64,000 bases of DNA, taken from contig NZ_LR134378.1 in assembly GCF_900637555.1 (NCBI RefSeq), positions 320,001 to 384,000 of the forward strand, given 5' to 3'. Both the position numbers and the translations under genes were made by a program. Under the pieces are notes generated by a model that worked only from the letters and a program-made list of their open reading frames with translations, was not told the DNA's origin and did not search any database. Positions 7,501-64,000 of this stretch are shown in pieces. Each line of letters starts with the position of its first letter. Within the stretch, counting starts at the first letter, position 1. This stretch comes from Lautropia mirabilis. Its GTDB lineage: Bacteria; Pseudomonadota; Gammaproteobacteria; Burkholderiales; Burkholderiaceae_E.

Positions 7501-8619
7501 GCCGTCACGCGCCAGACCACCGTGAACGGCAAGGTCGCAAATGACGACGTGATCAACGCCGTGGAAGCCAATGGCGTGGAAGTGTCGGGCACGGCCGAGC
7601 CCAACTCCGACATCCGCGTGCAGGTGCCGGGCACGAAGGTTGCGACCACCGTCCGGTCCGGCGCCGATGGCCTCTGGAAAGCGGCCCTGAACTTCACTGG
7701 TCTGCAGGATGGCCAACATACCATCGAGGCCACCGCCTCCCAGCCTGGCAGCACCTCGACATCCGTGGGCACCCACACGGTCACGCTGGCCAAGACCCCA
7801 CCGGCCAAACCCACCAACCTGCAGTTCGACGGCCACGCCAGCAAGGTCATCACAGGGGCGGAAGCCACCGATGGCGTCACCGTCACGGGCGATGTAGCAC
7901 CGGGATCGAAGGTGCAGGTCCAGCTGGGCACAACCACTCGGCCGGCAGACGTCGACGCTGCCGGGCACTTCTCGGCCACGCTGCCGGCCCCAGCCGTCAC
8001 CCCGGGTGGCTCGCAGCCCTATTCGGTCACCGTGACGGTGGCCGATGCCGCCGGCAATAAGCCGCAAAGCTGGGCCGAACGGATCGAGGTGCAAGGCCCC
8101 GCCCTGAAGCCGGCAACGCCGGTGCCCGCCGCCGTCACAACGGCGGCACTCACGCCCGCCACTCCGGACGCAGATGCCGACGCGGCAGGCGGTGCCGCGG
8201 CGCAACCGGCCACACCCACCACACCTGCAGCGGCGCCCGCAGCGGATGCGGCCGCCCAGCCCACTACCCCGGCAGCGCAGCCGTCCGCCCTCGGCATCGC
8301 CGCGGGGGATACCCTGGGCAAATCGCTGGCCACGGCCAAGGCGCTGCCCAGCCATCAGGGCAGCCGCCTGTCTCTGAACGAGCTGCTGGACCAGAGCGAG
8401 ACGCTGTCGCTGCCGGGTGAGGCATCCAGCGCCGGGTCGAATGCCGCCACATCGGCTGCCGGCAGCACGGCAGGCACGGGGACGCCCCCCGCCGCAGCGG
8501 CCGCTACGGACGTGGCGACGGCCGTGGAGTCCAGCGCCACCGCACTGAGCAGCACGGCCACGGTGAACACGCTGCTGGGCACCCAGCAGCCGTGGGAAAC
8601 GACGCACCCTGCGCTCTGA
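4531..8619 (+). CDS. BapA-prefix-like Ig-repeat adhesin, 1362 aa
   Basis: Larger paralogue of the 888-aa protein. Residues 1-115 match its prefix domain, sharing the order VEQL, LRVLQVDxDLxIEN, LEGYY and FVLYD. A hydrophobic stretch with seven to eight glycines follows at ~155-180. About nine Ig-like repeats (~185-1190) have the same turn motifs (AGN, DDIINAAEA, DKTPP). An Ala/Pro/Thr linker comes next. The C-terminus has SLNELLDQSETLSL and ends TATVNTLLGTQQPWETTHPAL, matching the paralogue's end. No signal peptide, RTX repeats or LPxTG are visible. The inferred role is adhesion or biofilm formation through a dedicated exporter not seen here. GGAACGAGC upstream of the ATG gives a modest ribosome binding site. 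Confidence 0.85.
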   Translation: MAARFEIYRTQDGGVEQLRLRPGENRVRVLPGRQFRLQDSNLDAEQLRVLQVDSDLVIENVPLDGDAGTASVILEGYYRICSASDQCAVTAGGDETVSIPDAAEGAGGAVLLADVNTKPLGALNDGTFVLYDPKFEAPILPVLGDVPTKPLLYGLGGAAVLGLAAAGGGGGGGGDGQAPQGNISLTLKSATYFNTRFPVLNGTAEPGSEVQVRIDTDGDQHANVTYTTKADENGNWAVDLKTATPSSGTLPATGLSDTNSLEVVGSNKGVQSTLPLTTLHFDDTPPASAEVASVAGDNIITAPEKAAGVAISGTAEANGSVELKLGTVTRLVAVDANGNWSTTLQADDLPAADGSYTLSATAIDAAGNRAPEVTSKVIMNTTGTAAIIGTISEDGYVNAKEAAAPVKVMGTAAPNSKVALWLTDEKNPLAEVQADANGKWEAGVPLPAGLADGKHALSVTTTNAQGNTATSKAEFTLDKTPPAPAANLKLEGNDTTITSLEAKNGVSLSGTGEAGTKVTVSIGGGKTQTATVGANGGWKVEFKEGDLPMPGQGNSTNTAFNVVLQDKAGNDSAVATQNVTLQGPLRPLSTPLISTIAGDDIINAAEAQGAVSVSGIADAGSIVHVKLGSSTDTVTAGINGAWTAQLTNLSKVPDGSYDVTAVASQPGRANSVAAAHKVTLDKTAPGQPTNIKTNGGDTTISAEEAKTGKITFTGDTPTGAQNADTVTVTWNGVSKPGTVTNGKWSVDFDSVPSVPAGQASTTADVTVVAHDKAGNNSTTAKQTITVQNSALPSLAPTFDPVAQDDIVNKAEAGSVNISGTAAPNATLQVVIGTRPPQSVTADGQGKWIIEGLNMSGLPDGKYIMSATATAPGGTTSAPANHEFTVDKTPPSLHFSGFAKTQTIAPEAAKGDLTFRGSSGEANTTLSATWNGKPVPISHTVGSFWRVTVPAADIPPAPANGTAKAALVVTSTDKAGNTAETTLDVTIQGAPAVTRQTTVNGKVANDDVINAVEANGVEVSGTAEPNSDIRVQVPGTKVATTVRSGADGLWKAALNFTGLQDGQHTIEATASQPGSTSTSVGTHTVTLAKTPPAKPTNLQFDGHASKVITGAEATDGVTVTGDVAPGSKVQVQLGTTTRPADVDAAGHFSATLPAPAVTPGGSQPYSVTVTVADAAGNKPQSWAERIEVQGPALKPATPVPAAVTTAALTPATPDADADAAGGAAAQPATPTTPAAAPAADAAAQPTTPAAQPSALGIAAGDTLGKSLATAKALPSHQGSRLSLNELLDQSETLSLPGEASSAGSNAATSAAGSTAGTGTPPAAAAATDVATAVESSATALSSTATVNTLLGTQQPWETTHPAL

Positions 8620-45441: not shown

Positions 45442-47007
45442 TCAGATCCCTTCGATCTGCGGGATGATGGCGCGGTCCACCATCTCGCTGAAGTGCTTGC
45501 CCCCCCGGGGCAGCACCAGCTGGTCACGGCGCGGCACCGGCGCAAACTCGTTGCCCACCAGCTTGATCTGCCGCAGCAACCCCGCCTGACTTTCCGACAA
45601 CTCCAGCAGCGGCCCCCGGCCGGTCCATTGCACCTGATTGCCGGACAGCTCGCACATCAGCAGCGGATACTGCCCCCGATCGTCGCCCACCTGAGCCAGC
45701 ACGTACACCGGCACGTTCATCGACGTGGCCCGGATCTCGTTGCCCACGATGCGCACACCGTACATGCCGCGATCGGTGAAATGGTCGTCAGCCCCGCGCA
45801 GCCCATAGCCCCGGTGGCTCTTGCGCCGCAACTTGCTGTTGAAGGCCGACTCCACCGCAATGTAGGCGCGGCCTGCCGGCCCGGACAGCCGGTTGCCCCA
45901 GAAGGAGTTCTCGTTGGCCACCACCGCGCAGTAGATCATGTACTTGGGCAACCCCTCGCTGCCCACTTCCACCTCGTTCATGTAGAAGTCGTTCTTCGAC
46001 GCCCCCACATAGGCCTGCAGCAGCCCCTCGCCCCGCGCCCGGTTGTTGCGGATGCGGTTGTAGCTGACCGTGTTGAACGATGAGCCGTAGGCCAGATGGA
46101 TGGACGAGGACAGCGAATCCGTCAGCTCGTTGCCGGTAATGACGTTGTAGTGGGACTGGTGCTGGATCGACATGCAGCGGATCTGGCCCTGCAGCTTGTT
46201 GTCCTGCACCAGGCTGCGTCGCACGCCCAGGAACGAAATGCCGTAGTAGGCACCACTGATCTGGTTGCCCTCCAGCAGGTTGTCGTGCGCCGGCACCGGA
46301 ATGTCCGGCAGCACGAAGCGCCGCAGCCAGCTCTCGCGCGGGGAACTTTCCCCCGCCGGCAGCAACCGCTCGGCCTCGATCTCGATGCCGAAGCAGTCGT
46401 GGTCGGGCAGAGGCTCCACCTCGATGACGTTGTTGCGGAACACGTTGTAGGCCACGGCACGCGTGCTGTTGATGCCGTTGCTCATGCCCCGCACATAGAT
46501 GCCGTGACCCACCTGCACATGGCGGATCCGGTTGTCCACCACATGCACACCCTGGGTGTCGATCAGGTAGATGGCGGCCGCCTGGTCCGGGTAGGTCACC
46601 TGGCACTCGATGGACAGGCCGGAGACCAAGAAAGGATCCTTGATCGGGTCCCGCTCGGCCAGCTCCCGCACCAGAAAGCCCGCCCGTTTCGAGCTGCTCT
46701 GCAAGCGGATAAGGCTGCCCTTCTCACCCTTGACGCCCGCCATGGCGCCCGAGAAGCTCACCTGGTCGGTAATGACGTATTCACCGGCCGGAAACACCAG
46801 CCAGATGCCCTGCCGCGCGGCCGCCTGGGCAGCGCGGATCACCGCCAGCGTGTCGTCATCGCGTCCGTTGGCCTTTGCCCCGTACTCCAGCGGCGAGACG
46901 ACCCGATCCAGGCGACCGGGCCCCGTGGGCGTGGCGGCCCGCAGCTGCTGGGCCATCAGGAACGTGGCGGCACCGGCCCCCAGCGTCTTCAGAAACTCCC
47001 TTCTCAT
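45442..47007 (-). CDS. Exported right-handed beta-helix (pectate-lyase-like) protein
   Basis: 521 aa. The N-terminus MRREFLKTLGAGAATFLMAQQLRAA is a Tat-like signal. SPLEYGAKANGRDDD opens the fold, as in pectate-lyase-3 / GH28-related proteins, followed by many short N-x-I/V beta-coil repeats (NNVIEVE, NRIRHV, GNQISGAYYGI, NRIRNNRARGEG). Such proteins in EPS clusters act as lyases, hydrolases or epimerases on the polymer; the activity here is unproven. The start at 47007 has GGAGGAAAA right before it. It lies downstream of the membrane polymerase-like gene on the same strand. Confidence 0.85.
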   Translation of the reverse strand: MRREFLKTLGAGAATFLMAQQLRAATPTGPGRLDRVVSPLEYGAKANGRDDDTLAVIRAAQAAARQGIWLVFPAGEYVITDQVSFSGAMAGVKGEKGSLIRLQSSSKRAGFLVRELAERDPIKDPFLVSGLSIECQVTYPDQAAAIYLIDTQGVHVVDNRIRHVQVGHGIYVRGMSNGINSTRAVAYNVFRNNVIEVEPLPDHDCFGIEIEAERLLPAGESSPRESWLRRFVLPDIPVPAHDNLLEGNQISGAYYGISFLGVRRSLVQDNKLQGQIRCMSIQHQSHYNVITGNELTDSLSSSIHLAYGSSFNTVSYNRIRNNRARGEGLLQAYVGASKNDFYMNEVEVGSEGLPKYMIYCAVVANENSFWGNRLSGPAGRAYIAVESAFNSKLRRKSHRGYGLRGADDHFTDRGMYGVRIVGNEIRATSMNVPVYVLAQVGDDRGQYPLLMCELSGNQVQWTGRGPLLELSESQAGLLRQIKLVGNEFAPVPRRDQLVLPRGGKHFSEMVDRAIIPQIEGI

Positions 47008-50988: not shown

Positions 50989-52122
50989 ATGCTCGCCCCC
51001 CTGCAACACATCGATTTCATCGACCTCAAGCAACAGTACCGCCGCCTGAAACCCGCCATTGACGAGCGGATGCAGGCCGTGCTCAACCATGGCCAGTACA
51101 TCATGGGGCCGGAAGTGGCCGAGCTTGAGAAGCGCCTGGCCGAATACGTGGGCGTGCGCCATGCCATCGGCATCAGCGACGGCACCACGGCGCTGCAGGT
51201 GGCCATGATGGCCCTGGGCATCGGCCCCGGTGACGAAGTCATCACCACCCCGTTCACCTTCATCGCCACGGCCGAGACCATCAGCCTGCTGGGCGCCACG
51301 CCGGTGTTCGTCGACATCGATCCCGACACCTGCAACCTGGACGCCAACCTGCTGGAAGCGGCCATCACGCCGCGCACCCGCGCCATCATCCCGGTCAGCC
51401 TGTACGGCCAGTGCGCCGACATGGAAGCCATCAACGCCATTGCCGCCCGCCATGGCCTGCCGGTCATCGAGGACGGCGCCCAGAGCTTTGGCGCCACCCG
51501 TCACGGCAAACGCTCGGGCAGTCTGTCCACCATTGGCTGCACCAGCTTCTTCCCCAGCAAGCCGCTGGGCTGCTACGGTGACGGCGGCGCCTGCTTCACC
51601 AACGACGACGAGCTGGGCCGCAAGATGTCGCAGATCCGCCTGCATGGCCAGTCCAAGCGCTACGTGCACTCGGCCATTGGCGTCAACGGCCGGCTGGACA
51701 CCCTGCAGGCCGCCGTGCTGCTGGTCAAGCTGGATCACTTCGACGAGGACGTGAAGCTGCGCGCGGATGCGGGCGCCCGCTATGCCCGCCTGCTGGCCAA
51801 CGCCGCCCACCCGCAGATCCGCCCCGTGACGGTGGCCGAAGGCAACACCAGCGTCTACGCCCAGTACACCGTGCGCGTGCCCAACCGCGCCCGGGTCATC
51901 GAGGTGCTCAAGGCCAACGGCGTGCCCACCGCCGTGCACTATCCCATGTGCCTGCACAAGCAGCCGGTCTATGCCAGCACCCCGCTGGCCGCCCAGAGCT
52001 TCCCGCACGCCGAGAAGGCTGCCGACGAAGTGCTGAGCCTGCCCATGTACCCGGACATCGACCACGCCCTGCAGGCCCAGATCATCGATCACCTGGTCGC
52101 CGCCGTCGAAAGCACGCTCTGA
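50989..52122 (+). CDS. DegT/DnrJ/EryC1 sugar aminotransferase (WbpE/WlbC-like)
   Basis: 377 aa PLP enzyme. Landmarks: IDLKQQYRRLKPAIDERM, GPEVAELEKRLAEYVGVRHAIGISDGTTAL, TPFTFIATAETI, PVSLYGQCADMEAIN, VIEDGAQSFGATRHGK, and SFFPSKPLGCYGDGG with the PLP Lys. By resemblance to WbpE/WlbC it would transfer an amino group to C3 of a UDP-3-keto-GlcNAcA. Neighbour acetyltransferase and the distant WbpB-like dehydrogenase supply the flanking steps. The ATG at 50989 was chosen by family alignment. Confidence 0.92.
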   Translation: MLAPLQHIDFIDLKQQYRRLKPAIDERMQAVLNHGQYIMGPEVAELEKRLAEYVGVRHAIGISDGTTALQVAMMALGIGPGDEVITTPFTFIATAETISLLGATPVFVDIDPDTCNLDANLLEAAITPRTRAIIPVSLYGQCADMEAINAIAARHGLPVIEDGAQSFGATRHGKRSGSLSTIGCTSFFPSKPLGCYGDGGACFTNDDELGRKMSQIRLHGQSKRYVHSAIGVNGRLDTLQAAVLLVKLDHFDEDVKLRADAGARYARLLANAAHPQIRPVTVAEGNTSVYAQYTVRVPNRARVIEVLKANGVPTAVHYPMCLHKQPVYASTPLAAQSFPHAEKAADEVLSLPMYPDIDHALQAQIIDHLVAAVESTL

Positions 52123-52129
52123 TCCTGCC

Positions 52130-53506
52130 GTGAGCGAGTCCACCCCCAGCCCCGCCCCGGACGCGGACAACCATTCCGCGTCCCCGGCGCCCACCGCGCC
52201 GGCCACCCCGCCGGCTGCGGCCGCACCGCGCCAGTCCTCCTACATCCGCACCGTCCTGAAGGTGCTGACCGGCAGTGCGGCCGCCCAGGCCATCCCGCTG
52301 CTGGTCATGCTGCTGCTGGCCCGCCTGGTCAGCGTCGAGGCGCTGGGGGTCTATGCCATCTGGCAGGCCGTCATCTACATCGCCATCGTGCCGGCCACGG
52401 CCCGCATGGAAATCCTGCTGGTGGCACTGCCGCTGGCCAGCGACCGCCGCAAGGCCTTCCGCATCGGGCTGTTCAGCAGCATCGGCGTGGGCCTGCTGCT
52501 GTCACTGGTGGCGGTGCTGGCACACGGCTTCATCGAACAGCGCCTGCCCGGCTGGCCCCTCTCGGCCTCGGTCCTGGTGGGGCTGGGCACCTGGGCGCTG
52601 GCCATGCAGACGCTGTGGCTGGCCATGGCCGTCACCTCCGGCGCCTTTGGTGTGGTCAACCGCATCCGCATCACCTCGGCCGGCCTCACGGCGCTGCTGC
52701 AGGTGGTGCTGGTCCTGTTCTGGCCCAACGGCATGATGCTGATGCTGGGCTTCGTCATCGGCACCAGCATGGGCAGCTGGGCCGCCTGGCTGGGCCTGAA
52801 GGAATTCCTGCTGGCGCATGACCTGCCCGATCCGAGCGGCCGCCACAAGCCCTGCCAGACCTACGGCGAGCTGATGCGCACCCACGGCAAGACGCCGATG
52901 ATCGCCCTGCCCGCCGCCCTCATCAACACGGTGGCCCAGCAGATCCCGCTGCTGCTTACCGGCACCCGCTTCGGCGAGCACGCCGCCGGCCTGCTGGGCA
53001 CGGCATGGCGCACCATCTCGGCGCCCATGTCCATCATTTCCAACTCGGCCCAGGACGTCTTCAAGAACAAGGCCGCCGAGGAGTTCAACCGCACCGGCCA
53101 GTGCCGGGCCGCCTACAAGCAGACCCTGCGGCTGCTGGCCTTCCTGGGCATCTTCCCGTCGGCCGTGCTGCTGTTCTGGGGGCCGCCGCTGTTTGCCCTG
53201 GTCTTTGGCGAGAAATTCCGCGCCGCCGGCGAGATCGCCCAGGTCTTCGCGCCGCTGCTGTTCATCCGCTTCTTTGCCAGCCCGCTGGGCTACACGCTGC
53301 TCATCACCCGGCAGGCCAAGCTGGACCTGTACTGGCAGATCGGGCTGCTGGCCGTGAGCCTGGCCGCCTTCACCCTGCCCCAGGAGGCAATGACGGCCAT
53401 CAAGTGGTTCTCTGTGGGATATACCGCACTCTATGTGGTATATCTGCTACTACAATGGCGTGCGGCTGGGGGCCAAGGCAATCGCCATACCCCACCCAGC
53501 GCCTGA
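52130..53506 (+). CDS. Wzx-type polysaccharide flippase, copy 3
   Basis: 458 aa starting at GTG (52130), 7 bases after the aminotransferase stop. A Pro/Ala/Thr-rich N-terminal tail (~40 residues) precedes about 12 helices beginning TVLKVLTGSAAAQAIPLLVMLLLARL. Family features are LGVYAIWQAVIYIAIVPATARMEILL and ISNSAQDVFKNKAAEEFNRTGQ. It resembles lipopolysaccharide-type translocases found with O-antigen-like loci. Followed 61 bases later by a ligase/polymerase-like gene. Confidence 0.87.
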   Translation: MSESTPSPAPDADNHSASPAPTAPATPPAAAAPRQSSYIRTVLKVLTGSAAAQAIPLLVMLLLARLVSVEALGVYAIWQAVIYIAIVPATARMEILLVALPLASDRRKAFRIGLFSSIGVGLLLSLVAVLAHGFIEQRLPGWPLSASVLVGLGTWALAMQTLWLAMAVTSGAFGVVNRIRITSAGLTALLQVVLVLFWPNGMMLMLGFVIGTSMGSWAAWLGLKEFLLAHDLPDPSGRHKPCQTYGELMRTHGKTPMIALPAALINTVAQQIPLLLTGTRFGEHAAGLLGTAWRTISAPMSIISNSAQDVFKNKAAEEFNRTGQCRAAYKQTLRLLAFLGIFPSAVLLFWGPPLFALVFGEKFRAAGEIAQVFAPLLFIRFFASPLGYTLLITRQAKLDLYWQIGLLAVSLAAFTLPQEAMTAIKWFSVGYTALYVVYLLLQWRAAGGQGNRHTPPSA

Positions 53507-53567
53507 TCGAGCCTCTTGCCCCGCCGCCCTGGCCGGGCAACGAACCGGAACGGCCCAAGGAACCCAC

Positions 53568-55031
53568 ATGGCGGCTCACCTTCTCAAGAAAACACGGTCG
53601 CACCAACCGACCCTCTTCGATACCTTCGGCTACGGAAGTCGGCCCCAGCGTCCTTCGTCGTTCAGCACGATGCTGGTCAGTGCGGCCTTCTTCTTCCATT
53701 TCGGCCTGTTGCCCATCCTGTGGAACGTGGCTACCAGCGTGCCCAGCATCGTCTGGACCGGTACCTCGACCGGCCTGCTCTGTCTGGCTGCCCTGGCCGC
53801 GCGACACAGCAGCATCACCAGCCGCAAGGTCTCCATCTGCACCATCACGTTCCTGTTCGCCTATCCCATCTTTGGCTGGATCAGCTACAAGGCCTGGGGC
53901 CAGTACAGCGGCGAACGCGAGACCATGCTGCTGCAGACGCTGCCCATCATGCTGCTGGGCCTGGCGCTCTATCTGACCGGCGCAGCCGCCCGCAGCCACC
54001 GCATCTACCGGACGATCTGGATGACGTGGTTGCTGATGGCGTGCTATGTCCTGCTCAACGCCAAGAACTTCTCCGTCGAGAACCTCTACCAGACAGCCAC
54101 CGAGACCGGCAACAAGCTCACCTATCAGCAGCTGGGTGACTCGTTCGCCATCTGCAGCACCATCCTGGCTGCCCGCATTCGCCAGGCGCCGCAGCGCTGG
54201 CTCTTCATTGCGGCCGCCATCGGCCTCATGTTCATCATCCCGTCCCGCAGTGCCGCGTTCTTCGGCACGGCCTCGCTGCTCACCGTCATCGTGCTGTTCG
54301 GCGGGTTCTTCACGCGCGTGGTGGTGATCGGCCTGGTGGTGGCCATTGGCCTGGGCTACGAGACCGGGCTGTTCGCCCAGCTGTTCGAGGGTACGCGCTT
54401 CCAGATTGCGTTCACCCCCGGCAGCGAAGACGGCTCCTGGAGCACCCGCCAGGAAATCATGAATCACGGCATGAACGTGCTCACCAGCCGGCCATTCACC
54501 GGTGAATGGGCGTTCCAGCTTGGCGAGATGAAGTTCGCCGGTCTCTACATCCACAACATCCTGGACATCTGGGCACAGACGGGCCTGATCTCCTTCCTGC
54601 TGTTCCTGGCCATCTGGGGCGCCCTGCTGGTCGCACTGATGACCGGTTTCGAGCGCTGGCCGCGCATTGCCAAGGAGACCGCTCCCCTGCTGGTCTTCGT
54701 CGTCCTGTCCTGGTGCCTGGCGCGAAACGTCACCTTCGTGGCGCTGTTCTTCTGCGTGGGCTTTGCCTCCGCAGCCCTGGAACAGGCCCGTTTTGGTCAG
54801 GTCGTCCGCCGTCACCGTGCCGACCAGCTCAACACGCAGTTCAACACGCAGTTCTCGCCCGACTCGCAGTTTGTGCACAGCCAGTTCGCCCCCAACCAGT
54901 TCGCAAACTCCCAGTTCGCGCCCCAGACGCAGCTTTCACCCGACACTCGGTTTGTGCGCAGGCACCAATACCAGGATCATCCCAAGTACCAGGATCACAC
55001 CAAGTTCTTCCCTCCTGGTTCCTCTTCCTGA
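53568..55031 (+). CDS. O-antigen ligase/polymerase-like membrane protein with low-complexity tail
   Basis: 487 aa, ATG at 53568 with AAGGA 8 bases upstream. About 10 helices; the periplasmic loop region contains GSWSTRQEIMNHGMNVLTSRPFTGEW and IHNILDIWAQTGLISF, with the conserved His near the end, typical of the Wzy_C/O-antigen ligase family. The last ~80 residues are polar repeats of the form NTQF/SQFAPNQF/NSQFAP, then HPKYQDHTK. They are hydrophilic and likely cytoplasmic. Follows the third flippase. Ligase or polymerase role inferred from family. Confidence 0.84.
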   Translation: MAAHLLKKTRSHQPTLFDTFGYGSRPQRPSSFSTMLVSAAFFFHFGLLPILWNVATSVPSIVWTGTSTGLLCLAALAARHSSITSRKVSICTITFLFAYPIFGWISYKAWGQYSGERETMLLQTLPIMLLGLALYLTGAAARSHRIYRTIWMTWLLMACYVLLNAKNFSVENLYQTATETGNKLTYQQLGDSFAICSTILAARIRQAPQRWLFIAAAIGLMFIIPSRSAAFFGTASLLTVIVLFGGFFTRVVVIGLVVAIGLGYETGLFAQLFEGTRFQIAFTPGSEDGSWSTRQEIMNHGMNVLTSRPFTGEWAFQLGEMKFAGLYIHNILDIWAQTGLISFLLFLAIWGALLVALMTGFERWPRIAKETAPLLVFVVLSWCLARNVTFVALFFCVGFASAALEQARFGQVVRRHRADQLNTQFNTQFSPDSQFVHSQFAPNQFANSQFAPQTQLSPDTRFVRRHQYQDHPKYQDHTKFFPPGSSS

Positions 55032-55046
55032 CGGCAACCTCTCCGG

Positions 55047-55970
55047 ATGCATCGCCCCATGAACCCATCGCCTTCCGTTGACCACGTCCCGGCGGGCCTG
55101 GCCCCTCAGGCTGAGCCCGCCATGCCCGGCCTCATGCAGCGCCAGTCGGGCCTGGCCGCCCGCGTTCGCAAGCTTGGCTGGCGGCTCTACGAGGAACTGA
55201 TCCTGCCCAACCGGCAGGACGAGTACCGGCGGCTTCTGAAGCATGCCCGGGACCACGGGTACCGCGTCATCGACAACGCCCAGTGGCTGACCCTTCAGCT
55301 GGAAGGCTCGATGGCCCCCGATGAGCGGGTCCTCGTGATGCGCCACGACATCGACACCGACCCGAAGCTGTCGCTGGCCTGGCACCGGATCGAGCAGGAA
55401 CTGGGCTGCCGCGCCAGCTATTACTTCCGGCAGAGCACGATGGATGCGGATGTCATCCAGCAGCTGGCCCGGGATGGTGTTCATGTCAGCTACCACTTCG
55501 AGGAACTGGCCGAATACGCCAAGCAGCATCGGCTGCGTTCACCGGCAGCCGTGCAGGCGGCCATGCCGGCCATCCACGAGCTGTTCGCCCAGAACCTGCA
55601 GACGCTGCGCACGCGCTTCAACGTGCCGATGGACGTCGTCTGCTCCCATGGCGACTGGATGAACCGCTTCCTCAAGATGCCCAACCACGTGCTACTGCAG
55701 GATCAGGCCCTGCGCGAGCGGCTGGGCATCCGCAGTGAATGCTATGACGACAACGTCATGAAACCCTTTGCCTGCTACCTGTCCGACAGCAACCCGCCTC
55801 ACTACTGGGTGCGGGGCGAACCCTTCGCGCTGATCGAGCAGGGCGTCACCCCGCTGGGCATTCTCACGCACCCGAAATCCTGGCGTGCACACTGGCCGTC
55901 GAACTTTTCTGAACTGACCTGCCGTATCCGCGAGGCCCTGAGCTTCCGCTTCGGCAAAGGATGGACATGA
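55047..55970 (+). CDS. Polysaccharide deacetylase-like (CE4/NodB-like) protein
   Basis: 307 aa. Contains RHDIDTDP (CE4-type metal and catalytic Asp motif), HVSYHFEELAEYA, CSHGDWMN and LTHPKSWRAHWP. These are typical of deacetylase-like proteins in EPS clusters that may remove N-acetyl groups from the polymer or a precursor. No signal peptide is evident, so a cytoplasmic substrate is possible. Start alternatives are ATG 55047 and 55059. Its TGA overlaps the next gene's ATG (ATGA), implying translational coupling. Confidence 0.8.
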   Translation: MHRPMNPSPSVDHVPAGLAPQAEPAMPGLMQRQSGLAARVRKLGWRLYEELILPNRQDEYRRLLKHARDHGYRVIDNAQWLTLQLEGSMAPDERVLVMRHDIDTDPKLSLAWHRIEQELGCRASYYFRQSTMDADVIQQLARDGVHVSYHFEELAEYAKQHRLRSPAAVQAAMPAIHELFAQNLQTLRTRFNVPMDVVCSHGDWMNRFLKMPNHVLLQDQALRERLGIRSECYDDNVMKPFACYLSDSNPPHYWVRGEPFALIEQGVTPLGILTHPKSWRAHWPSNFSELTCRIREALSFRFGKGWT

Positions 55971-57130
55971 AGCCGATCCGCATCTGTCATTTCTCCACGG
56001 TCCACCGTGGCGTCGAAATCCGCATCGTCCGCAAGGAACTGGCCTCACTGGCTGCCGCCGGCTATGACGCCCATGCCGTCATCGCCGCCACCCCCGAAGA
56101 GGTGGCCGAAGCGGCCAAGCTCGGCGTCACCATTCATCCGCTCCAGGAGCGCCCCGGCGCCGGCCGCGTCTCGCGCATGACGCGCAAGATGTACGACGCC
56201 TGGCGCCAATGTCGCGCGGTCGACGCCCAGCTCTACCACTTCCACGATCCCGAACTGATCCCACTCGGCCTTCTGCTCAAGCTGAGCGGGCGCAAGGTCG
56301 TCATCGACGTGCATGAAGATCTGGCCAACCAGATCCTGACCAAGCACTGGATCCCGGCCCCCATCCGCAAGGTGGTCTCCCGGCTGGCGCGTGGCATGGA
56401 ACGCATTGCCGCCCGACGGCTGGATGGCACGGTCGTGGCCGCCTCCAAGCTCGGACCCTTCTTCGAGGACGTGGCACGCCGACTGATGGTGGTGCACAAC
56501 TACCCGCTGCTGTCGGAACTGGCCAGCCCTCCCACCGAGGAAGAGGCCAACCTGCCACTGTCGGAACTGGTCAAGAAACTGCCTCCGGCCACCCACGTGG
56601 CCTACGTGGGCGGCATCTCGCGCATCCGCGGCATCTACGAGGCCGTCGCGGCCGTGGAAAAGGCCGACGTCGGCCTGGTGCTGGCAGGCACCTTCAAGAC
56701 CAAGGCCGAACGCGACCAGGCTGCAGCCATGAGCGGCTGGTCCCGTGTCGACGAACTGGGATGGGTCGAGCGTGACGGCATCCGCGCTGCCCTGCAACGC
56801 AGCTTCGCCGGTCTCTGCACCCTGCACCCGACCCCGAACCACGTCAGCGCCGAACCGATCAAGCTGCTTGAATACATGGCGGCCGGCATTCCCTCCATCG
56901 TTTCCGACATCCCCGACTGGGTGGAGTTCGTCGAGAAGCACGACATCGGCCTGTGTGTTGACCCGATGGATGTGGACGCCATCGCCAAGGCCATCGTCAC
57001 CCTGCGTGATGATCCGGAACGACGTGCCCAGATGGGTCGCAACGGCCAGAAGGCCGTCATGGAACAGTACAACTGGAATACCCAGGCCAAGCGTCTGGAA
57101 GCGTTGTACGAAGAGATCCTGAAGAGCTGA
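55967..57130 (+). CDS. Glycosyltransferase family 4
   Basis: 387 aa GT-B enzyme starting MKPIRICHFSTVHRGVEIRIVRKELASLAAAG, preceded by AAGG. ATG 55967 overlaps the previous stop; an in-frame ATG at 55961 also exists. Middle: YHFHDPELIPLGLLLKLSGRKVVIDVHEDL, a signature of EPS GT4 enzymes. Donor half: VAYVGGISRIRGIYEAVAA and LHPTPNHVSAEPIKLLEYMAAGIPSIVSDIPDW with the acidic EX7E-like pair. Last gene of the polysaccharide region. A GGGCGGGG/CCCCGCCC hairpin (57154-57180) follows. Confidence 0.88.
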   Translation: MKPIRICHFSTVHRGVEIRIVRKELASLAAAGYDAHAVIAATPEEVAEAAKLGVTIHPLQERPGAGRVSRMTRKMYDAWRQCRAVDAQLYHFHDPELIPLGLLLKLSGRKVVIDVHEDLANQILTKHWIPAPIRKVVSRLARGMERIAARRLDGTVVAASKLGPFFEDVARRLMVVHNYPLLSELASPPTEEEANLPLSELVKKLPPATHVAYVGGISRIRGIYEAVAAVEKADVGLVLAGTFKTKAERDQAAAMSGWSRVDELGWVERDGIRAALQRSFAGLCTLHPTPNHVSAEPIKLLEYMAAGIPSIVSDIPDWVEFVEKHDIGLCVDPMDVDAIAKAIVTLRDDPERRAQMGRNGQKAVMEQYNWNTQAKRLEALYEEILKS

Positions 57131-57342: not shown

Positions 57343-59169
57343 ATGTGCCCTGCCCTTCCGTCTTTCCTCTTCAAGCCGCATAGCCGCTTTCCAGGCCATC
57401 CGACCATGCTGAGTACCTGTCTTGCCCTATCCCTGACACTGGCCGGTTGCGGTGGCACGGGCCAGGACGAGACGCATCAGGAAATCGCCGCTGCCCCCAT
57501 CACGGTGGACGGCCCCAGCATCACCTCGGAAGCCGCCTTCATCTTCGACCAGAAACCCGGAGAAACGCCCGACATTCTGGACTCGGCGCCCAAGGACGAG
57601 TTCGCCAATGATCTTGCCTGGGCCATGGAGCGCATCGGCAAACCGACGGCCGGACTGATGGACCTCGCATCCGGCATGCTGGTCGCCAGCGCCGAAGCGG
57701 CCACAGCCAACGACGCCGATCATCCGGACGCCGTGCATGGCACGCTGCAGCCCAAGCATCCGCGCCCCACCAACCTGCATCGCCTGAACGACCCCAACCT
57801 GCCTGAGTGGGCCCGGGACTGGGACAAGCCCAGCCGCAACGAGCAGCCCGCACAGAACAGCAACGCCAGCCAGCCCAAACCGTCGGCCGGCAGCAGCGCC
57901 GCCAATGGCAATCCGGGCAGCAACAGCGCCAGCAATAACAGCGCCGCCAGCCAGAATCCGTCTGCTGCCAAGGACCGTCTGGTCAGCGTCACAAGCGATG
58001 GATACCGGCTGAACTCCCCCGAATTCAACCGTCTCTACGGCCCTGGCGTATTCAACCAGTATGCACTGGCCAACACCATCGTCGGCTCCTATCGCAATCT
58101 GGAAACCGTCGTCTCCAACCGCTTCATGGCGCTCAACAGCGGCTATCTGGCCAGCGTGAAGCTCTACTGGCAGACCGGTCTGGGCTATGCAGGCGGCACG
58201 GGCGGCACCATTCGTCTGCGCGTCTACCCCGATGACGGCTCCAGCGCACACCTGCCCGACATGAAGGGCGAGCCGCTGGCCCAGGCTGTCTATCGCCCCG
58301 GCCTCAAACCGGGCGAAGACAAGAAATCCATCTTCCAGGACATCCCGGTGTCGCGTGGCAATCAGCCGCTGCAGGCCGGCAGGATCTATCACCTGGTGAT
58401 GGACAACATCGACGCCCACCCCAACGACAACTTCATCAGCAGCAACAACGCCATCACCTACATCGGCACCGGTCGTCCGGCGCGCTGGCTGAACACCCTG
58501 GACTGGTCCACCCTGCTGGCAAAACGTCCGCGCGGCTCGCGCAATGCCTATACTTGGCTCAACCTCACCGAGAAAGGCACCACCAACAACTACTTCTCGC
58601 CCATTCTGCAGCTGACGATGACCAACGGCCAGATCCAGGGCGTTTCCGACATGGAAGGTGGCAGCGTCGATCCGAAGACGATCTTCACCGCCACCCAGGC
58701 CACACCGGTGCGTGAACGCTTCACGCCTGGCTCGGACAAGACCATCTCCGGCATTTCCTTCTCCACGGCAGCATCGGTAGGCGGACGGCTTGAGTGGCGC
58801 ATCCTTCAAGGGCAGACGGTCCTGGCCAATGGCACCATCGAAGCCCTGCGCCCCAACTATCACCTGATCCGCACCAACACCAGCCTGTCAATGGGGGGCA
58901 CCACCTGGTACGACATCGCGCTGCCCAAGGACATCCGTCTGCGTGCCGGCCAGACCTACGACCTGGAATTCCGTCCGCAAGGCAGCAGCCAGTGGAAATT
59001 CGGCGGCCACCGCAACGGTTCCAGCTACGGTTTCCGGTGGCCTGCAGCCTTCACGGAATCTCAGGCGCAGCACTTCCAAAACGGCAGCTGGCTCGACACC
59101 TACCACTGGAGCTACACCCAGTCACGGCGCGGCTCCAACTGGCCTGTCGTCCTGCACCTGGCACCCTGA
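57343..59169 (+). CDS. Predicted lipoprotein, family with YGPG / WPVVLHLAP motifs, long form
   Basis: About 608 aa from ATG 57343 (alternatives ATG 57406 and TTG 57280). Lipobox LTLAGC near residues 31-36. Residues ~40-215 are a polar Asn/Ser/Pro linker not found in the other copies. The shared module follows: RLYGPGVFNQYAL, SNRFMAL, VKLYWQTGLGYAGGTGG, LRVYPDDGSSAH, YHLVMDNID, ISSNNAIT, ILQLTMTNGQ, GQTYDLEFRPQGSSQW, GFRWPAAFTES and NWPVVLHLAP at the extreme C-terminus. The fold looks beta-rich (jelly-roll-like). I do not recognise the family and assign no function. Location inferred: outer membrane or surface. Confidence 0.8.
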   Translation: MCPALPSFLFKPHSRFPGHPTMLSTCLALSLTLAGCGGTGQDETHQEIAAAPITVDGPSITSEAAFIFDQKPGETPDILDSAPKDEFANDLAWAMERIGKPTAGLMDLASGMLVASAEAATANDADHPDAVHGTLQPKHPRPTNLHRLNDPNLPEWARDWDKPSRNEQPAQNSNASQPKPSAGSSAANGNPGSNSASNNSAASQNPSAAKDRLVSVTSDGYRLNSPEFNRLYGPGVFNQYALANTIVGSYRNLETVVSNRFMALNSGYLASVKLYWQTGLGYAGGTGGTIRLRVYPDDGSSAHLPDMKGEPLAQAVYRPGLKPGEDKKSIFQDIPVSRGNQPLQAGRIYHLVMDNIDAHPNDNFISSNNAITYIGTGRPARWLNTLDWSTLLAKRPRGSRNAYTWLNLTEKGTTNNYFSPILQLTMTNGQIQGVSDMEGGSVDPKTIFTATQATPVRERFTPGSDKTISGISFSTAASVGGRLEWRILQGQTVLANGTIEALRPNYHLIRTNTSLSMGGTTWYDIALPKDIRLRAGQTYDLEFRPQGSSQWKFGGHRNGSSYGFRWPAAFTESQAQHFQNGSWLDTYHWSYTQSRRGSNWPVVLHLAP

Positions 59170-59230
59170 TTCATCCACCTCCCTGTCACCGGCTTTCCGC
59201 CCAGAGCAATCGCTGCCCGGAAAGTCGAAG

Positions 59231-59270
59231 AAAAACGGCCAGCACGCCTTGCAGCGGCTGGCCGTTCTGC
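59231..59270. terminator. Terminator between convergent lipoprotein genes
   Basis: AACGGCCAGC / GCTGGCCGTT stem with a 13-base loop. Reading leftward it ends in TTTTT, so it mainly serves the minus-strand gene starting at 60699. Confidence 0.7.
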
Positions 59271-59281
59271 ATCAGAGGTTT

Positions 59282-59343
59282 CCATCCGATGCTTCAGGTG
59301 CCTTCAACCGGTCTCATGGTGCAAGGTGCAACACCACGGGCCA
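59282..59343 (+). repeat. 62-bp direct repeat, copy A
   Basis: Covers the last ten codons of the minus-strand lipoprotein gene and 32 bases beyond. It matches 60927-60988 in the same orientation with three mismatches, at positions 59293, 59297 and 59299. Confidence 0.9.
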
Positions 59344-60699
59344 ATTGGAATCGGGGTCGCCCGAGCTGTTGTGATTGAAGTGGTTGAAGTTGATCCAGCG
59401 TCCATTCAGCCGATGCTGCGCATGTGACTCCGTAAACGATGCGGGCCAGCTAAACCCATGCCTGGAGCCATTGCGGAAATCGGCGAACATCCACCGACTG
59501 CCGCCTTCAGGGTGAAACTCCACGTCATAGGTCTGACCGGCCTGCAACGTGATGGCGCCGAACGAGGCGTCATACCAATACACCTTGCCAACCTGGTACG
59601 TGTTGTTGGTCGACAGAGCACGGTAATTTGCCCCGGAGCTGATCCGGCCACTGGCCAGTTCCTGGCTGCCATGCATGATACGCCAGCGCAACGAACCTCC
59701 CACTGCGGCAGCCGTCGCAAATGACAGGCCTGTGACCCGCTTGTTGCTGCGGGGATTGAACTGTTCACGCACCGGGCTGTTGCTGGTGGCCGGGAAGATT
59801 CGTTTGGGTGCAACCGATCCGCTTTCCATGATCGTCGACCCCTGTCTTTGACCGTCCCGAGTGGTCAACTGCAGGATAGGAATGTAGTAATTGCCGCTGG
59901 AGGCGTTCTGAGTCAGATCCTCCCATGAGAAAGTAGCTCCTGACCAGGCCGCACGCTTGCCCAGCAGCGTGGCCCAGTCCGTCGTCGAGATCCACCGTGA
60001 CGGACGCCCATTACCTGCATTGCTGATGGCATTGTTGCTGCTGATGTAATTCCGATGTGGCGCGCCATCGACGTTGTCCAACACCAGATGATAGAGATGC
60101 CCGGCCACCAGAGGCTGCTGGCTACTGAAGTGCGCATCACCAAAGATGGGCTTGCCTTGATAGGTCGCCTGACCAGGGGTGAAATAGGCCGTGGCCAGCG
60201 GAGATGCCGAGAGATTCGGACGATGAGCACCACTGCCGTCATCAGGCATCAACCGGAGGCGGATGGTTCCGCCGTTGCCGGACGAATACCCTTTGCCCGG
60301 CTGCCAATAGAGACGGGCAGTACTCAGATGGCCATTGATGGTAGCCCGGAAGCGGTTCGACACCACCTGCTCCCGATTGTTGACAATGCCCGGGATGGTA
60401 TTGCTCAGAGCATCCTGCCGGAAAATGCCGGGACCATAGAGTCGGCGGGCCTCGGCTGAGGTCAACGAGAGGTTGCCACTGCCAGCGGGGACGATGGGAC
60501 CCGCCTTGGCACGACGCTGGGCGGCCTGCTGGCCCAGTACCGGCAGTGCTTTGGCTGCCTGACCGGCAGTGGGTTCATGGGTATCTGCACCGCATGCGGC
60601 AAGCGGAATGACAAGAGCAAGAATGCTCCTGCGCAACGCGCCATGGCCAAATACGGAATTGCTGTGCTTGCTACCGAGGTTTACCTGTTTGGTGTTCAT
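59314..60699 (-). CDS. Predicted lipoprotein, YGPG / WPVVLHLAP family, copy 2
   Basis: 461 aa. Signal sequence RRSILALVIPLAAC with lipobox Cys. Shared module: RRLYGPGIFRQDAL, VSNRFRATINGHLSTARLYW, GYSSGNGGTIRLRLMPDDGS, LYHLVLDNVD, YISSNNAIS, ILQLTTRDGQ, GQTYDVEFHPEGGSRW, GFSWPASFTESHAQHRLNG and WPVVLHLAP at the end. The start at 60699 has GGAG 9 bases upstream and sits 29 bases after a good -10. Opposite in strand to the other three copies. Function unknown. Confidence 0.82.
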   Translation of the reverse strand: MNTKQVNLGSKHSNSVFGHGALRRSILALVIPLAACGADTHEPTAGQAAKALPVLGQQAAQRRAKAGPIVPAGSGNLSLTSAEARRLYGPGIFRQDALSNTIPGIVNNREQVVSNRFRATINGHLSTARLYWQPGKGYSSGNGGTIRLRLMPDDGSGAHRPNLSASPLATAYFTPGQATYQGKPIFGDAHFSSQQPLVAGHLYHLVLDNVDGAPHRNYISSNNAISNAGNGRPSRWISTTDWATLLGKRAAWSGATFSWEDLTQNASSGNYYIPILQLTTRDGQRQGSTIMESGSVAPKRIFPATSNSPVREQFNPRSNKRVTGLSFATAAAVGGSLRWRIMHGSQELASGRISSGANYRALSTNNTYQVGKVYWYDASFGAITLQAGQTYDVEFHPEGGSRWMFADFRNGSRHGFSWPASFTESHAQHRLNGRWINFNHFNHNSSGDPDSNWPVVLHLAP

Positions 60700-60728
60700 C
60701 GCGTTTGTCTCCAGTTGCGACATTTGTA

Positions 60729-60757
60729 ATTTTATGTCACAACGTCGAATTAGTAAA
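60729..60757 (-). promoter_or_regulatory. Promoter of lipoprotein copy 2
   Basis: Reading leftward: TTTACT, 17 bp, TAAAAT. The -35 with preceding GTG matches the promoters of copies 3 and 4. The implied leader is about 22 bases. Confidence 0.7.
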
Positions 60758-60773
60758 CACAATTCGTATTGTG
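60758..60773. promoter_or_regulatory. Perfect inverted repeat abutting the -35, candidate operator
   Basis: CACAAT, TCGT, ATTGTG: a 6+4+6 symmetric site directly upstream of the -35 of lipoprotein copy 2. The position suits an activator or repressor dimer. Confidence 0.5.
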
Positions 60774-60926
60774 AAATTTTTTGCTTATATACCAAGCAGA
60801 TAGCGTTCCGGCACCTCCTCCCACTAGGCAAACAACGTTCAAGAACAAACTGCATACACATCGCGATAGCCCCTCCCTTGGCAGGAAGAAGCTCCCCCAC
60901 CCAGCCATCCGAGGCATCTGGCGCCC

Positions 60927-60988
60927 CCATCCGATGCCTCAAGCGCCTTCAACCGGTCTCATGGTGCAAGGTGCAACACCACGGGCCA
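60927..60988 (+). repeat. 62-bp direct repeat, copy B
   Basis: Near-identical to 59282-59343 (three mismatches). The two copies flank the promoter-proximal and terminal ends of the minus-strand lipoprotein gene. Confidence 0.9.
60959..60988 (-). pseudogene. Remnant 3' end of a further lipoprotein paralogue
   Basis: Reads W-P-V-V-L-H-L-A-P-stop on the minus strand, identical to the end of copy 2, within direct repeat B. The sequence upstream on that strand does not encode the rest of the family, so only ten codons survive. It is most likely the scar of a deleted or recombined copy. Confidence 0.7.
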
Positions 60989-61259
60989 GGACGCACCACA
61001 GGCCTGCTTCCCCTTTGCAACCATCCGCCGCTCCACCAGCCCCCAAAAATGGTGGGGCTTGCAATGGCAGGGAAAGCTGTCTCCAGACAGCCCGAGCATG
61101 GCAATAAGTCCCGATGGACGTAAATACACTGTTCATTTTTGGCCCTTATCCGGACCAAACGTCAATATCACCGTAAAAAGCAGCAATTCCGACACCAGGC
61201 ACGGCGCATATATTCCCTCCCGATAAAACTCGCCACCGAATTTATTCCCAAATACCGTG
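60989..61259. other. Intergenic region between divergent lipoprotein copies 2 and 3
   Basis: No gene seen. The second half is AT-richer. The element TTATCCGGAC occurs at 61146-61155 and again at 63052-63061 upstream of copy 4. Confidence 0.45.
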
Positions 61260-61288
61260 TTTACTTTCCCGGCGCTTGCCCCTAATAT
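61260..61288 (+). promoter_or_regulatory. Promoter of lipoprotein copy 3
   Basis: TTTACT (61260-61265), 17 bp, TAATAT (61283-61288), preceded by GTG as in copy 2. ATG 61317 follows the -10 by 28 bases. Confidence 0.65.
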
Positions 61289-61316
61289 CCCGGGATACCG
61301 ATCCGGAGAGGAATTC

Positions 61317-62675
61317 ATGAAAATTAGCAATAGCAACGTTGCTAATACCGTACATAAACGCACTTCGCGTAACAATATTTTGCTATTTAGCGCCCTTCTG
61401 GCCGGGGCAGTGTTGTCTGGATGCGGCGGTGGCGGCGGTGGTTCTGGCGCTTCGGACGTTCCTGTCCAGCAGACCAAGGCCATTGTCAGCCAGCCCGGCA
61501 GCGAAGGTTACGCACTCAACTCGGCCGAGATCGGCCGGCTCTACGGCCCCGGCGTGTTCCGGCAGGATGCCCTGGGCAACACCATGATCGGCATCAACGG
61601 CAGCCAGGAGAGAATCGTCTCCAACCGCTTCCGGGCCACCATCAGCGGCAACCTGGCCTCGGCACGGCTGTACTGGCAACCGGGAACGGGCTATTCGCGG
61701 GGCAACGGCGGCGTCATCCGTCTGCGCCTGCTGCCCGACGACGGTTCGGACGCCCATGCACCCGACATGTCGGCCACGCCGCTGGCCACGGCAGAGTTCA
61801 CGCCGGGTTCGGCCGCCCAAGGGGATCGCGCCATCTTTGCCGACAGCACGTTCACCAGCCAGCAGCCGCTGGTGGCCGGCCAGATCTACCATCTGGTGAT
61901 GGACAACGTGGCTCCGGATCCGCGCGAGAACTACATCAGCAGCAACAACGCCATCACCCACGAACAGAACGACCGCCCCTCCCGCTGGGTCTCCTCCATT
62001 GACTGGGGCACGCTGCGGGGCTCGCGTGCGGCGGGTTCCTCGGATGCCTTCACGTGGTCCGACTACACGCGCAGCGCCTCCAACGGCAACTACTATGTGC
62101 CCATCCTGCAGCTCACCACGGCAGACGGCCAGCGCCAGGGCATGGCCAACATGGAAAGTGGCGCCGTCGATCCGGGTCGCATCTTCACCATCGGGGCCGA
62201 TCAACCCATCCGGGAACGTTTCCGCCCCACGCGCGAGCGGCGCGTGACGGGCCTGTCGTTTGCCACGGCGGCATCGGTTGCGGGCACGCTGCAGTGGCGC
62301 ATCCTGCAGGGCAGCAACGTGCTGGCCAGCGGGCAGTTCACGACAGACGCGCCCAACTACACCGCGCTGCAGGCCAACGCCAACCGGGTCGGCAAGGTCT
62401 TCTGGCATGACGCCGAGATCAATGGCGGCCAGGGCGTGACGCTGGCCGCCGGCCAGACCTACGACGTGGAGTTCCAGCCCCAGGGCCAGAGCCAGTGGAA
62501 GGTGGCCGACTTCTACAACGGCTCGCTGCACGGCTTCAGCTGGCCAGCGGCCTTCACCGAATCCAATGCCCAGCACCGCGTGAATGGTCAGTGGATCAAC
62601 GTCGACCACTTCAACCACACCCGTGCCGGCAAGGTCGAGGCCAACTGGCCCGTGGTCCTGCACATGGCGCCCTGA
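61317..62675 (+). CDS. Predicted lipoprotein, YGPG / WPVVLHMAP family, copy 3
   Basis: 452 aa. Signal sequence NILLFSALLAGAVLSGC with lipobox Cys followed by six glycines, a flexible tether. The module is complete: GRLYGPGVFRQDALGNT, VSNRFRATISGNLASARLYW, GYSRGNGGVIRLRLLPDDGS, IYHLVMDNV, NYISSNNAIT, YVPILQLTT, GQTYDVEFQPQGQSQW, GFSWPAAFTESNAQHRVNGQW and NWPVVLHMAP at the end. The ATG at 61317 has AGAGGA 6 bases upstream. A longer frame to 61257 lacks similarity. Function unknown; beta-rich and exported by inference. Confidence 0.83.
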   Translation: MKISNSNVANTVHKRTSRNNILLFSALLAGAVLSGCGGGGGGSGASDVPVQQTKAIVSQPGSEGYALNSAEIGRLYGPGVFRQDALGNTMIGINGSQERIVSNRFRATISGNLASARLYWQPGTGYSRGNGGVIRLRLLPDDGSDAHAPDMSATPLATAEFTPGSAAQGDRAIFADSTFTSQQPLVAGQIYHLVMDNVAPDPRENYISSNNAITHEQNDRPSRWVSSIDWGTLRGSRAAGSSDAFTWSDYTRSASNGNYYVPILQLTTADGQRQGMANMESGAVDPGRIFTIGADQPIRERFRPTRERRVTGLSFATAASVAGTLQWRILQGSNVLASGQFTTDAPNYTALQANANRVGKVFWHDAEINGGQGVTLAAGQTYDVEFQPQGQSQWKVADFYNGSLHGFSWPAAFTESNAQHRVNGQWINVDHFNHTRAGKVEANWPVVLHMAP

Positions 62676-63251
62676 CGCCCGCCAGGGTTCCGGAACGCAC
62701 ACGCGCCCCCGCCAATCCCCGGATCGCCAGCCTTTCGCCGGCGGTCCGGGTCGGGTACAACGATTTCGTGTACCTGTCAGGCCACACTCTGCAAGAGAAA
62801 ATTGACACGGAATTTCGGCCGCTTTCGTGCCGGAATGCACCACCGGGGCCCCTTCAGAAATGAGGGCCGGGCGGTCGTTTTTGATCCGTTCAGGAGCATT
62901 TTTCGGGTCTTTATGCGGCCGGAATACGCCAACGACGGGTACGCGCCCAATCCGCGCGTACTGCCCTTCCGTACCCGCAAAGCGGCCACTGGTCCCCGAA
63001 TAACGGCCTCACATCTGTCGCACACCATCATTGACGCCATGCCGACCTTATTATCCGGACATTATCCATAAACTCGCCCCTATTGCGCCCGGAATTCATC
63101 TCCCGTATCCGGCACACGGCGCGGCCATTCATTCCGCTCTGCTGGCGCGCATCATGACGATATCTGGCGCCCATCTCCGCCGAAATAGGTCCATCCGCGC
63201 AGAATCGTCATATCCCCCAATAAATGGGGACTCGACAGTCAGGGGTTTTTG
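62676..63251. other. Intergenic region before lipoprotein copy 4
   Basis: About 575 bases without a gene. It contains a probable terminator for copy 3 (62839-62882), a GGATCGCC/GGCGGTCC imperfect hairpin near 62722-62752, the shared element TTATCCGGAC (63052-63061) and AT-rich stretches. The CCCCCAATAAATGGGG hairpin lies near 63213-63228. Confidence 0.45.
62839..62882 (+). terminator. Imperfect hairpin with T-run after lipoprotein copy 3
   Basis: GGCCCCTTCA, GAAA, TGAGGGCC stem with a small bulge, extended by outer pairing of ACC/GGT, then GTTTTTG. Confidence 0.45.
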
Positions 63252-63280
63252 TTTACTTTACCGACAAGGGCACATACCAT
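63252..63280 (+). promoter_or_regulatory. Promoter of lipoprotein copy 4
   Basis: TTTACT (63252-63257), 17 bp, TACCAT (63275-63280). ATG 63309 follows by 28 bases, the same spacing as copy 3. Confidence 0.6.
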
Positions 63281-63308
63281 TACGCCCGTCAAACTTAGGA
63301 ATAACTCA

Positions 63309-64000
63309 ATGACAAATTGCAATATAAACGTCAGCAAAAAACCTCATAGTCATTCATATATATACAACTCGTTGCGCAAAGGCATCGTCGCCCTGGCCAT
63401 TCCCCTGGCAGCTTGCGGCGTGCATTCGGACGATGACACGGCCCATCTGAACACCAAGGCCGTCTCTTCCCACGCCCCGAACACCCTGGCCACGCAGAGC
63501 GACAGCACCCCGGCGAAGACCACGCAGGCCCCAGGCCGTCGCCAGACCAAGGCCGTGGTATCTGCCGGCAGCGGCAACCACGCGCTGACCTCGTATGAAG
63601 TGCGCCGGCTCTACGGTCCGGGTGTCTTCCGGCAGGATGCGCTGGCCAACACCATCGTCGGCATCAACGGCCGGCGTGAGCAGATCATCTCCAACCGCTT
63701 CCGGGCCACCATCAACGGCCACCTCAGCACCGCCCGCCTCTACTGGCAGCCGGGTCGCGGCTATTCGGCCGGTAACGGCGGCAATATCCGCCTGCGGCTG
63801 ATGCCCGATGACGGCAGCGGCGCACACCGCCCCAACATGTCGGCCACACCGCTGGCCACGGCCTATTTCACGCCGGGTTCGGCAGCCTACCGCGGCAATC
63901 CCATCTTCAACGATGCCTATTTCAGCAGCCAGCAGCCTCTGGTGGCCGGCCGCATCTATCACCTGGTGCTGGACAACATCCACCCGGCGCCGCACCAGAA
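63309..64000 (+). CDS. Predicted lipoprotein, YGPG family, copy 4 (3' end outside window)
   Basis: 230 codons visible. ATG at 63309 with AGGA 8 bases upstream. Signal sequence KGIVALAIPLAAC with lipobox Cys, then a Thr/Ala/Pro linker of ~55 residues. The module starts with RRLYGPGVFRQDALANTIVGINGRREQIISNRF, followed by INGHLSTARLYW, YSAGNGGNIRLRLMPDDGSGAH and IYHLVLDNI. It is closest to copy 2. The first ~100 bases are AT-rich, unlike the rest. Runs off the window; function unknown. Confidence 0.82.
   Translation, partial: MTNCNINVSKKPHSHSYIYNSLRKGIVALAIPLAACGVHSDDDTAHLNTKAVSSHAPNTLATQSDSTPAKTTQAPGRRQTKAVVSAGSGNHALTSYEVRRLYGPGVFRQDALANTIVGINGRREQIISNRFRATINGHLSTARLYWQPGRGYSAGNGGNIRLRLMPDDGSGAHRPNMSATPLATAYFTPGSAAYRGNPIFNDAYFSSQQPLVAGRIYHLVLDNIHPAPHQ

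Follow-up and report, generated by a model that had tools for sequence, protein, structure and literature searches.

The window analysed here, a 64,000-nt stretch of Lautropia mirabilis DNA (bases 320001–384000 of a 3.17-Mb genome assembled as a single contig; genus Lautropia), carries a polysaccharide gene cluster and, towards its right end, genes for four lipoproteins that share one module behind tethers of different length. These proteins belong to a real, narrow and cluster-linked family of tethered proteins built on a predicted double beta-sandwich. The four copies are arranged as follows.

57343–59169, plus strand: copy 1, long-tether lipoprotein; lipobox LAGC, tether of 194 residues, module from 58030
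59314–60699, minus strand: copy 2, lipoprotein in reverse orientation to the other three; lipobox LAAC, tether of 50 residues
61317–62675, plus strand: copy 3, lipoprotein; lipobox LSGC, tether of 38 residues, module used for the first AlphaFold2 model
63309–64730, plus strand (window ends at 64000): copy 4, lipoprotein; lipobox LAAC, tether of 64 residues

A whole-genome search with the first 552 of the 608 residues of copy 1 returned exactly four places, copies 1–4. Copies 2–4 are 51–52% identical to copy 1 over 341–369 residues (expect value (E) 7.6e-106 or better), and the paralogy of the four is far above chance level. Copy 4 is complete in the genome, cut only by the window edge, and a second in-frame ATG in copy 1, at 57406, is the exact beginning of its signal peptide. 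The original prediction, made from the letters of the window, had named four paralogues with lipoboxes and variable tethers; the genome search and a lipobox pattern test agree with the first part, and the tether lengths listed above, measured from the cysteine to the module, bear out the second. It had also described a shared module of about 390 residues with a fully conserved ending, WPVVLH-x-AP. The module is shared but shorter, spanning 379, 376, 379 and 374 residues in copies 1–4 when counted from RLYGPG, and its ending varies: WPVVLH is present in the window copies, copy 4 reads WPVVLHQE without the final AP, and the four copies of a sister genus (genome G010) have NWRVVLH or NWRMVLH. Alignment of 27 copies gives a mean column identity of 58%, with 37 positions invariant.

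In neither Pfam nor NCBIfam does a window copy exceed a curated cut-off, and PHROGs returns chance-level matches only (copy 4 entering these searches as its first 230 residues). NCBIfam run on all 27 modules gives nothing better than E 0.04, and of two sequence searches of the PDB, one returned two rows at chance level (E 0.13, phage maturation protein) and the other none. The cut-off of DUF4082 (PF13313; 28.4 bits) is passed by a single module of the 27, G014_u791k, at 29.8 bits; the remaining 26, the four window copies included (copy 4 again as 230 residues), score below it or do not match. When the N-terminal and C-terminal halves of the module (N half and C half) were aligned by hhalign to a 4-sequence alignment of DUF4082, they scored 33.1 and 33.2, with probabilities of 52% and 56% and E-values, each for a single comparison, of 1.5e-4 and 1.1e-4; the best of 60 column shuffles reached 21.7 and 19.3, below the real scores. 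Both halves align in the same register, although DUF4082 is a 143-position domain and the halves span about 180–210 positions each. By profile comparison, then, the module is a distant relative of DUF4082, with both halves DUF4082-like, so that its earlier description as an unrecognised family holds at the level of curated cut-offs and gives way at the level of remote kinship. Our literature search found no function for DUF4082, which was named once, as a table entry without function. Among the matches listed for Lautropia in open-licence PubMed Central text, there is no work on these genes.

Models were predicted for the modules of two paralogues, with mean predicted local distance difference test (pLDDT) scores of 66.5 and 65.3. 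In these models the module is predicted to form two beta-sandwiches in tandem, of the type found in lectins and carbohydrate-binding modules (CBMs), in keeping with the jelly-roll or lectin folds for which structure prediction had been suggested. In both models the bacterial domain that the N half matches best in fold is the Cwp84 lectin-like domain, and the C half matches phage-tail and CBM-type domains; the beta-sandwich is the fold that the predicted module has in common with lectin-like and CBM domains. Viral capsid domains and the baseplate and tail domains of phages rank first among the fold matches. Foldseek searches with the whole model give low template-modelling (TM) scores, because two domains are aligned together. 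Enzymes that trim or modify the surface polymer, as a lyase, esterase or hydrolase would, are quite improbable: no enzyme family scores over the cut-off in Pfam or NCBIfam, and the majority of the fold matches are non-catalytic domains.

The profile search of genomes proposed in the original prediction reveals a narrow family. A protein search of 74 genomes from the bacterial family finds 27 copies, spread over nine genomes, with four in G000, six in G014, two in G016, three in G017, two in G018, two in G019, three in G020, one in G021 and four in G010. One further row, of 28 in all, which would have added G009 as a tenth genome, is a low-complexity signal-peptide match and was dropped. In samples of the order and the phylum, with at most four candidates scored per genome, profile A1 matched 5 of 399 genomes (four Lautropia and the remote N-domain of G441) and 1 of 398 (the source genome only); rare relatives elsewhere in either may exist.

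Linkage to polysaccharide genes, the other check proposed, is real, with 22 of the 27 copies lying inside the polysaccharide cluster. Eighteen of these, in seven Lautropia genomes, stand between the counterpart of the glycosyltransferase gene at 55961 and a PIG-L deacetylase gene; both flanks are seen in six of the seven, and the G020 contig ends after the copies. In G010, which belongs to another genus, the cluster is rearranged and the four copies sit at different points, still inside it, together with shared kinase, acetyltransferase, aminotransferase, deacetylase-like, glycosyltransferase and PIG-L genes. The deacetylase-like gene at 55122, taken as the cluster marker (E 1e-10 or better), is found in 8 of the 74 genomes, exactly those with linked copies, and never without the family; the association is strong, with p 6e-10 when relatedness is ignored. 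G015, a genome 81% complete, has neither marker nor copy.

The export signals are consistent with lipid anchoring of most members. A lipobox, defined by a pattern test rather than a trained predictor as an N-terminal hydrophobic stretch ending in cysteine, is present in 23 of the 27 copies, including all four in the window, and the residue after the cysteine is Gly, Thr or Ser, never Asp. The tethers are 31–274 residues long over the family and rich in Gly, Ser, Ala, Pro and Thr. We note that the tether of copy 1 (57406–58029) contains an HPRP motif, present in five of the seven copy 1 counterparts, this genome included; the tether may therefore be more than a spacer. The modules are basic in 16 of 18 linked Lautropia copies and in 2 of 5 unlinked ones (p 0.048); such a charge would suit an acidic polymer. 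A lectin-like predicted fold, paralogues that diverge in charge and tether, and copies outside the cluster would equally fit adhesins for host, salivary or partner-bacterium glycans that are merely located among surface genes. Such a role is rather unlikely, given that linkage to one polysaccharide cluster is kept in two genera despite differing gene order and that in the 74 genomes the marker is not seen without the family.

A counterpart of copy 1 occupies the same place in all seven Lautropia genomes with the cluster, the source genome included, and in a tree of the 27 modules the first copy of every Lautropia cluster falls into one group (support 100/100), which also holds three unlinked copies. 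The remaining copies group by species or species pair (13 of the 24 inner branches are well supported), which suggests that they arose by later duplication. A 75-nt repeat between copies 2 and 3 is likely to be the tail of a vanished fifth copy. One G014 copy (L038:9323-10681) lacks about 32 columns of the C half and is perhaps decaying. A hairpin directly before the start of copy 1 seemed conserved on inspection; it is present in the minimum-energy folds of two of seven orthologues, and was dropped. The repeat and three promoter-like sites are listed here.

60914–60988, minus strand: candidate remnant, 3' end of a further minus-strand copy; direct repeat of 59269–59343, 88% identical
60729–60759, minus strand: promoter-like site TGTTTACT-N17-TAAAAT, 60 nt before copy 2
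61258–61288, plus strand: promoter-like site TGTTTACT-N17-TAATAT, 59 nt before copy 3, absent from the consensus scan
63250–63280, plus strand: promoter-like site TGTTTACT-N17-TACCAT, 59 nt before copy 4, absent from the consensus scan

The exact pattern TGTTTACT-N17-TAnnAT has three matches in the window, one before each of copies 2–4 and 59–60 nt from the start codon. A promoter consensus scan reported a single site over 7 kb, where shuffled sequence would give 2.1. Ahead of copies in relatives TGTTTACT was not found (14 loci scanned, with one match that does not precede a copy); one G017 copy has, by eye, TTTACT-N17-TACCAT. The pattern may reflect common descent of the paralogues. These observations bear on a further possibility, that the proteins are periplasmic accessory lipoproteins of polymer assembly or export that bind and guide the nascent chain, as the carbohydrate-binding domains of BcsB are thought to guide cellulose. 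We consider this unlikely, since two to four copies per cluster with lineage-specific expansion, tethers that reach the upper end of the range given above, and promoter-like sites before the three window duplicates are all unlike a core export part.

One distant candidate relative lies outside the bacterial family. Genome G441, from another family of the order, encodes a 510-residue lipoprotein-like protein (L056:907-2439) on a prophage-like contig, which matches the N profile at positions 59–153 of 210 (hmmsearch, E 6.5e-7 in a set of 270 sequences) and has an adjoining CBM5/12-like domain at 24.0 bits, just under the 26.2 cut-off. The reverse search with its N-domain in 300 genomes recovered two G017 copies (E 3.3e-4 and 7.0e-4) and no match in three other Lautropia genomes; its top row, in G291 (E 8.0e-5), is false, being antisense to a chorismate-synthase-like gene. 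Because that false row outranks G017 and three Lautropia genomes are unmatched, the relation of the G441 protein to the family is weak. Its prophage-like setting, together with the viral and phage-tail domains at the top of the fold matches, would fit proteins that block phage adsorption to the polymer or act as decoys for it, having arisen from the lectin domains of phage tails. Such a role is very improbable: a pattern scan with alignment detected no relative in viral contigs, the copy 3 module detected none in phage and plasmid records, and most copies lie among polymer genes.

The cluster itself, as read from the window, contains the following genes.

40385–42604, plus strand: chain-length determinant/tyrosine autokinase of Wzc type, taken as the cluster start
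42892, 48892 and 55961: glycosyltransferase-like genes
45442–47007, minus strand: right-handed beta-helix protein
47179, 52130 and 53433: membrane proteins, flippase/polymerase-like by reading, no family hit
50283: acetyltransferase-like gene
50989–52122, plus strand: sugar aminotransferase-like protein, best match PseC, below its cut-off
53433–55031, plus strand: the last of these membrane proteins, polymerase/ligase-like by reading only, no family hit
55122–55970, plus strand: deacetylase-like protein, RHDID motif by eye, no family hit; the cluster marker
55961–57130, plus strand: GT4-type glycosyltransferase, left neighbour of the copies in all seven Lautropia genomes with the cluster (split in two by the gene finder in G020)
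Right of the copies: PIG-L deacetylase, WcaI-like glycosyltransferase and WecB (UDP-N-acetylglucosamine 2-epimerase)

The copies had been placed beside the polysaccharide locus; the last line puts them inside it. WecA-, WecB- and WecG-type genes occur further left than the cluster, and the genome has two Wza-type export genes, the closer of which lies about 6 kb beyond the left edge of the window. From this gene content the polymer probably contains amino sugars, and perhaps aminouronic acids, the latter on the basis of pathways of WbpB/D/E type. The beta-helix protein has a twin-arginine-like start and a counterpart in all four other Lautropia genomes covering that stretch. Adjoining the WecB gene, here and in all five other Lautropia genomes covering the stretch, is a 1025-residue protein (L005:5202-8279, minus strand) that begins with a Ser/Gln-rich stretch and matches Reg_prop. 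Two very long open reading frames to the left of the polysaccharide genes (1570–4236 and 4531–8619 of the window) have a common start, MAAR...GDGGVEQL, and are possibly large adhesins.

We propose that the four proteins are outer-membrane, lectin-like lipoprotein tethers that retain the cell's own exopolysaccharide, and give this about an even chance of being correct; from the predicted fold, the linkage and the tether design we infer polymer binding, surface display and retention. Each protein would be exported, lipidated at the lipobox cysteine and sorted to the outer membrane, with display at the surface. Lipoprotein sorting is governed by the rule on Asp at position +2, and outer-membrane sorting is proposed because no copy has Asp there. 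A low-complexity, presumably disordered tether of 38–194 residues, longest in copy 1, would space the module from the membrane, and the module, with its two DUF4082-like sandwiches, would grip the polymer of the surrounding cluster. Copy 1 would be the conserved core member and copies 2–4 lineage-specific duplicates, probably with their own promoters, that may vary in affinity or reach, while a small number of relatives, which carry different export signals, may be released to serve as matrix proteins. More tentatively, each cluster may encode a dedicated polymer-retention system with its own set of tethered double lectins: one conserved long-reach member, several fast-turning short-reach duplicates with separate promoters, and released forms; a single family would thereby hold one polymer at several distances from the cell. 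This wider scheme is possible but doubtful.

Several observations weigh against polymer retention. Five copies lie off the cluster (three in G014, one in G020 and one in G021), and the 20 kb read around the off-cluster Lautropia copies holds no match to the cluster's genes; G021 has its lone copy and no marker, its best kinase match being 37% identical and similar to the second kinase of other genomes. When the comparison is confined to the nine Lautropia genomes, co-occurrence does not reach significance (p 0.22). Four copies have no lipobox: by eye, G017_c3 and G010_a have a plain signal-peptide-like start, G010_b a twin-arginine-like one, and G019_c1 is ambiguous. The charge argument fails in G010 (+6, -2, -1 and +1) and for copy 3 and its G017 counterpart (-2 each). 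The confidence of both models is low, and the fold matches also include viral capsid, PHR and receptor domains, so that a lectin-like fold is no proof of sugar binding. The original prediction, that these proteins bind or organise the surface polymer, accordingly remains the best reading, backed by cluster linkage and lectin-like predicted folds, with binding itself as its conjectural part; its claim of an undescribed system was too strong, given that the presumed job is one that other bacteria do with other proteins and that not all copies are linked.

Three known systems invite comparison. Cwp84 is likewise surface-associated and its lectin-like domain (PF18560, Lectin_like) resembles the N half in fold, but that domain belongs to a clostridial S-layer protease, the structural alignments have 11–13% identity, and the PF18560 model matches one family member only, in the C half (E 0.03). 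In tail fibres of the myophages Deep-Blue and Vp4, one study describes single chains in which a domain like the Cwp84 lectin precedes one of CBM type (PMC11406892). The phi812 and Douge chains align to both module halves (one model, with a large root-mean-square deviation); these are, however, virion parts, with no sequence similarity in PHROGs, viral contigs or phage records. The proposed way of working resembles that of RbmA, RbmC and Bap1 of Vibrio cholerae, which act together with an exopolysaccharide and whose genes are linked to the Vibrio polysaccharide (VPS) genes, as most copies here are to their own cluster. These matrix proteins are secreted, whereas most Lautropia copies look lipid-anchored. 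Profile A1 had no match at E 10 among PDB chains, a set in which the presence of RbmA, RbmC and Bap1 was unchecked and with no direct comparison made. RbmA binds VPS directly (PMC5605196). A narrow search of open-licence PubMed Central text for polysaccharide-anchoring lipoproteins returned nothing.

In sum, this looks like a new family doing a job done elsewhere by other proteins that hold or organise exopolysaccharide. Retention of secreted polysaccharide on the Gram-negative surface is, in our judgement, well studied in few models only, and Lautropia offers a small system open to experiment, in which a single cluster has four paralogues, lipid-anchored and anchorless variants occur naturally, and one genome has a lone copy but no marker. 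Should binding fail, the finding would reduce to a narrow orphan lipoprotein family; if the proposal is true, it would provide a plausible job for DUF4082-like domains.

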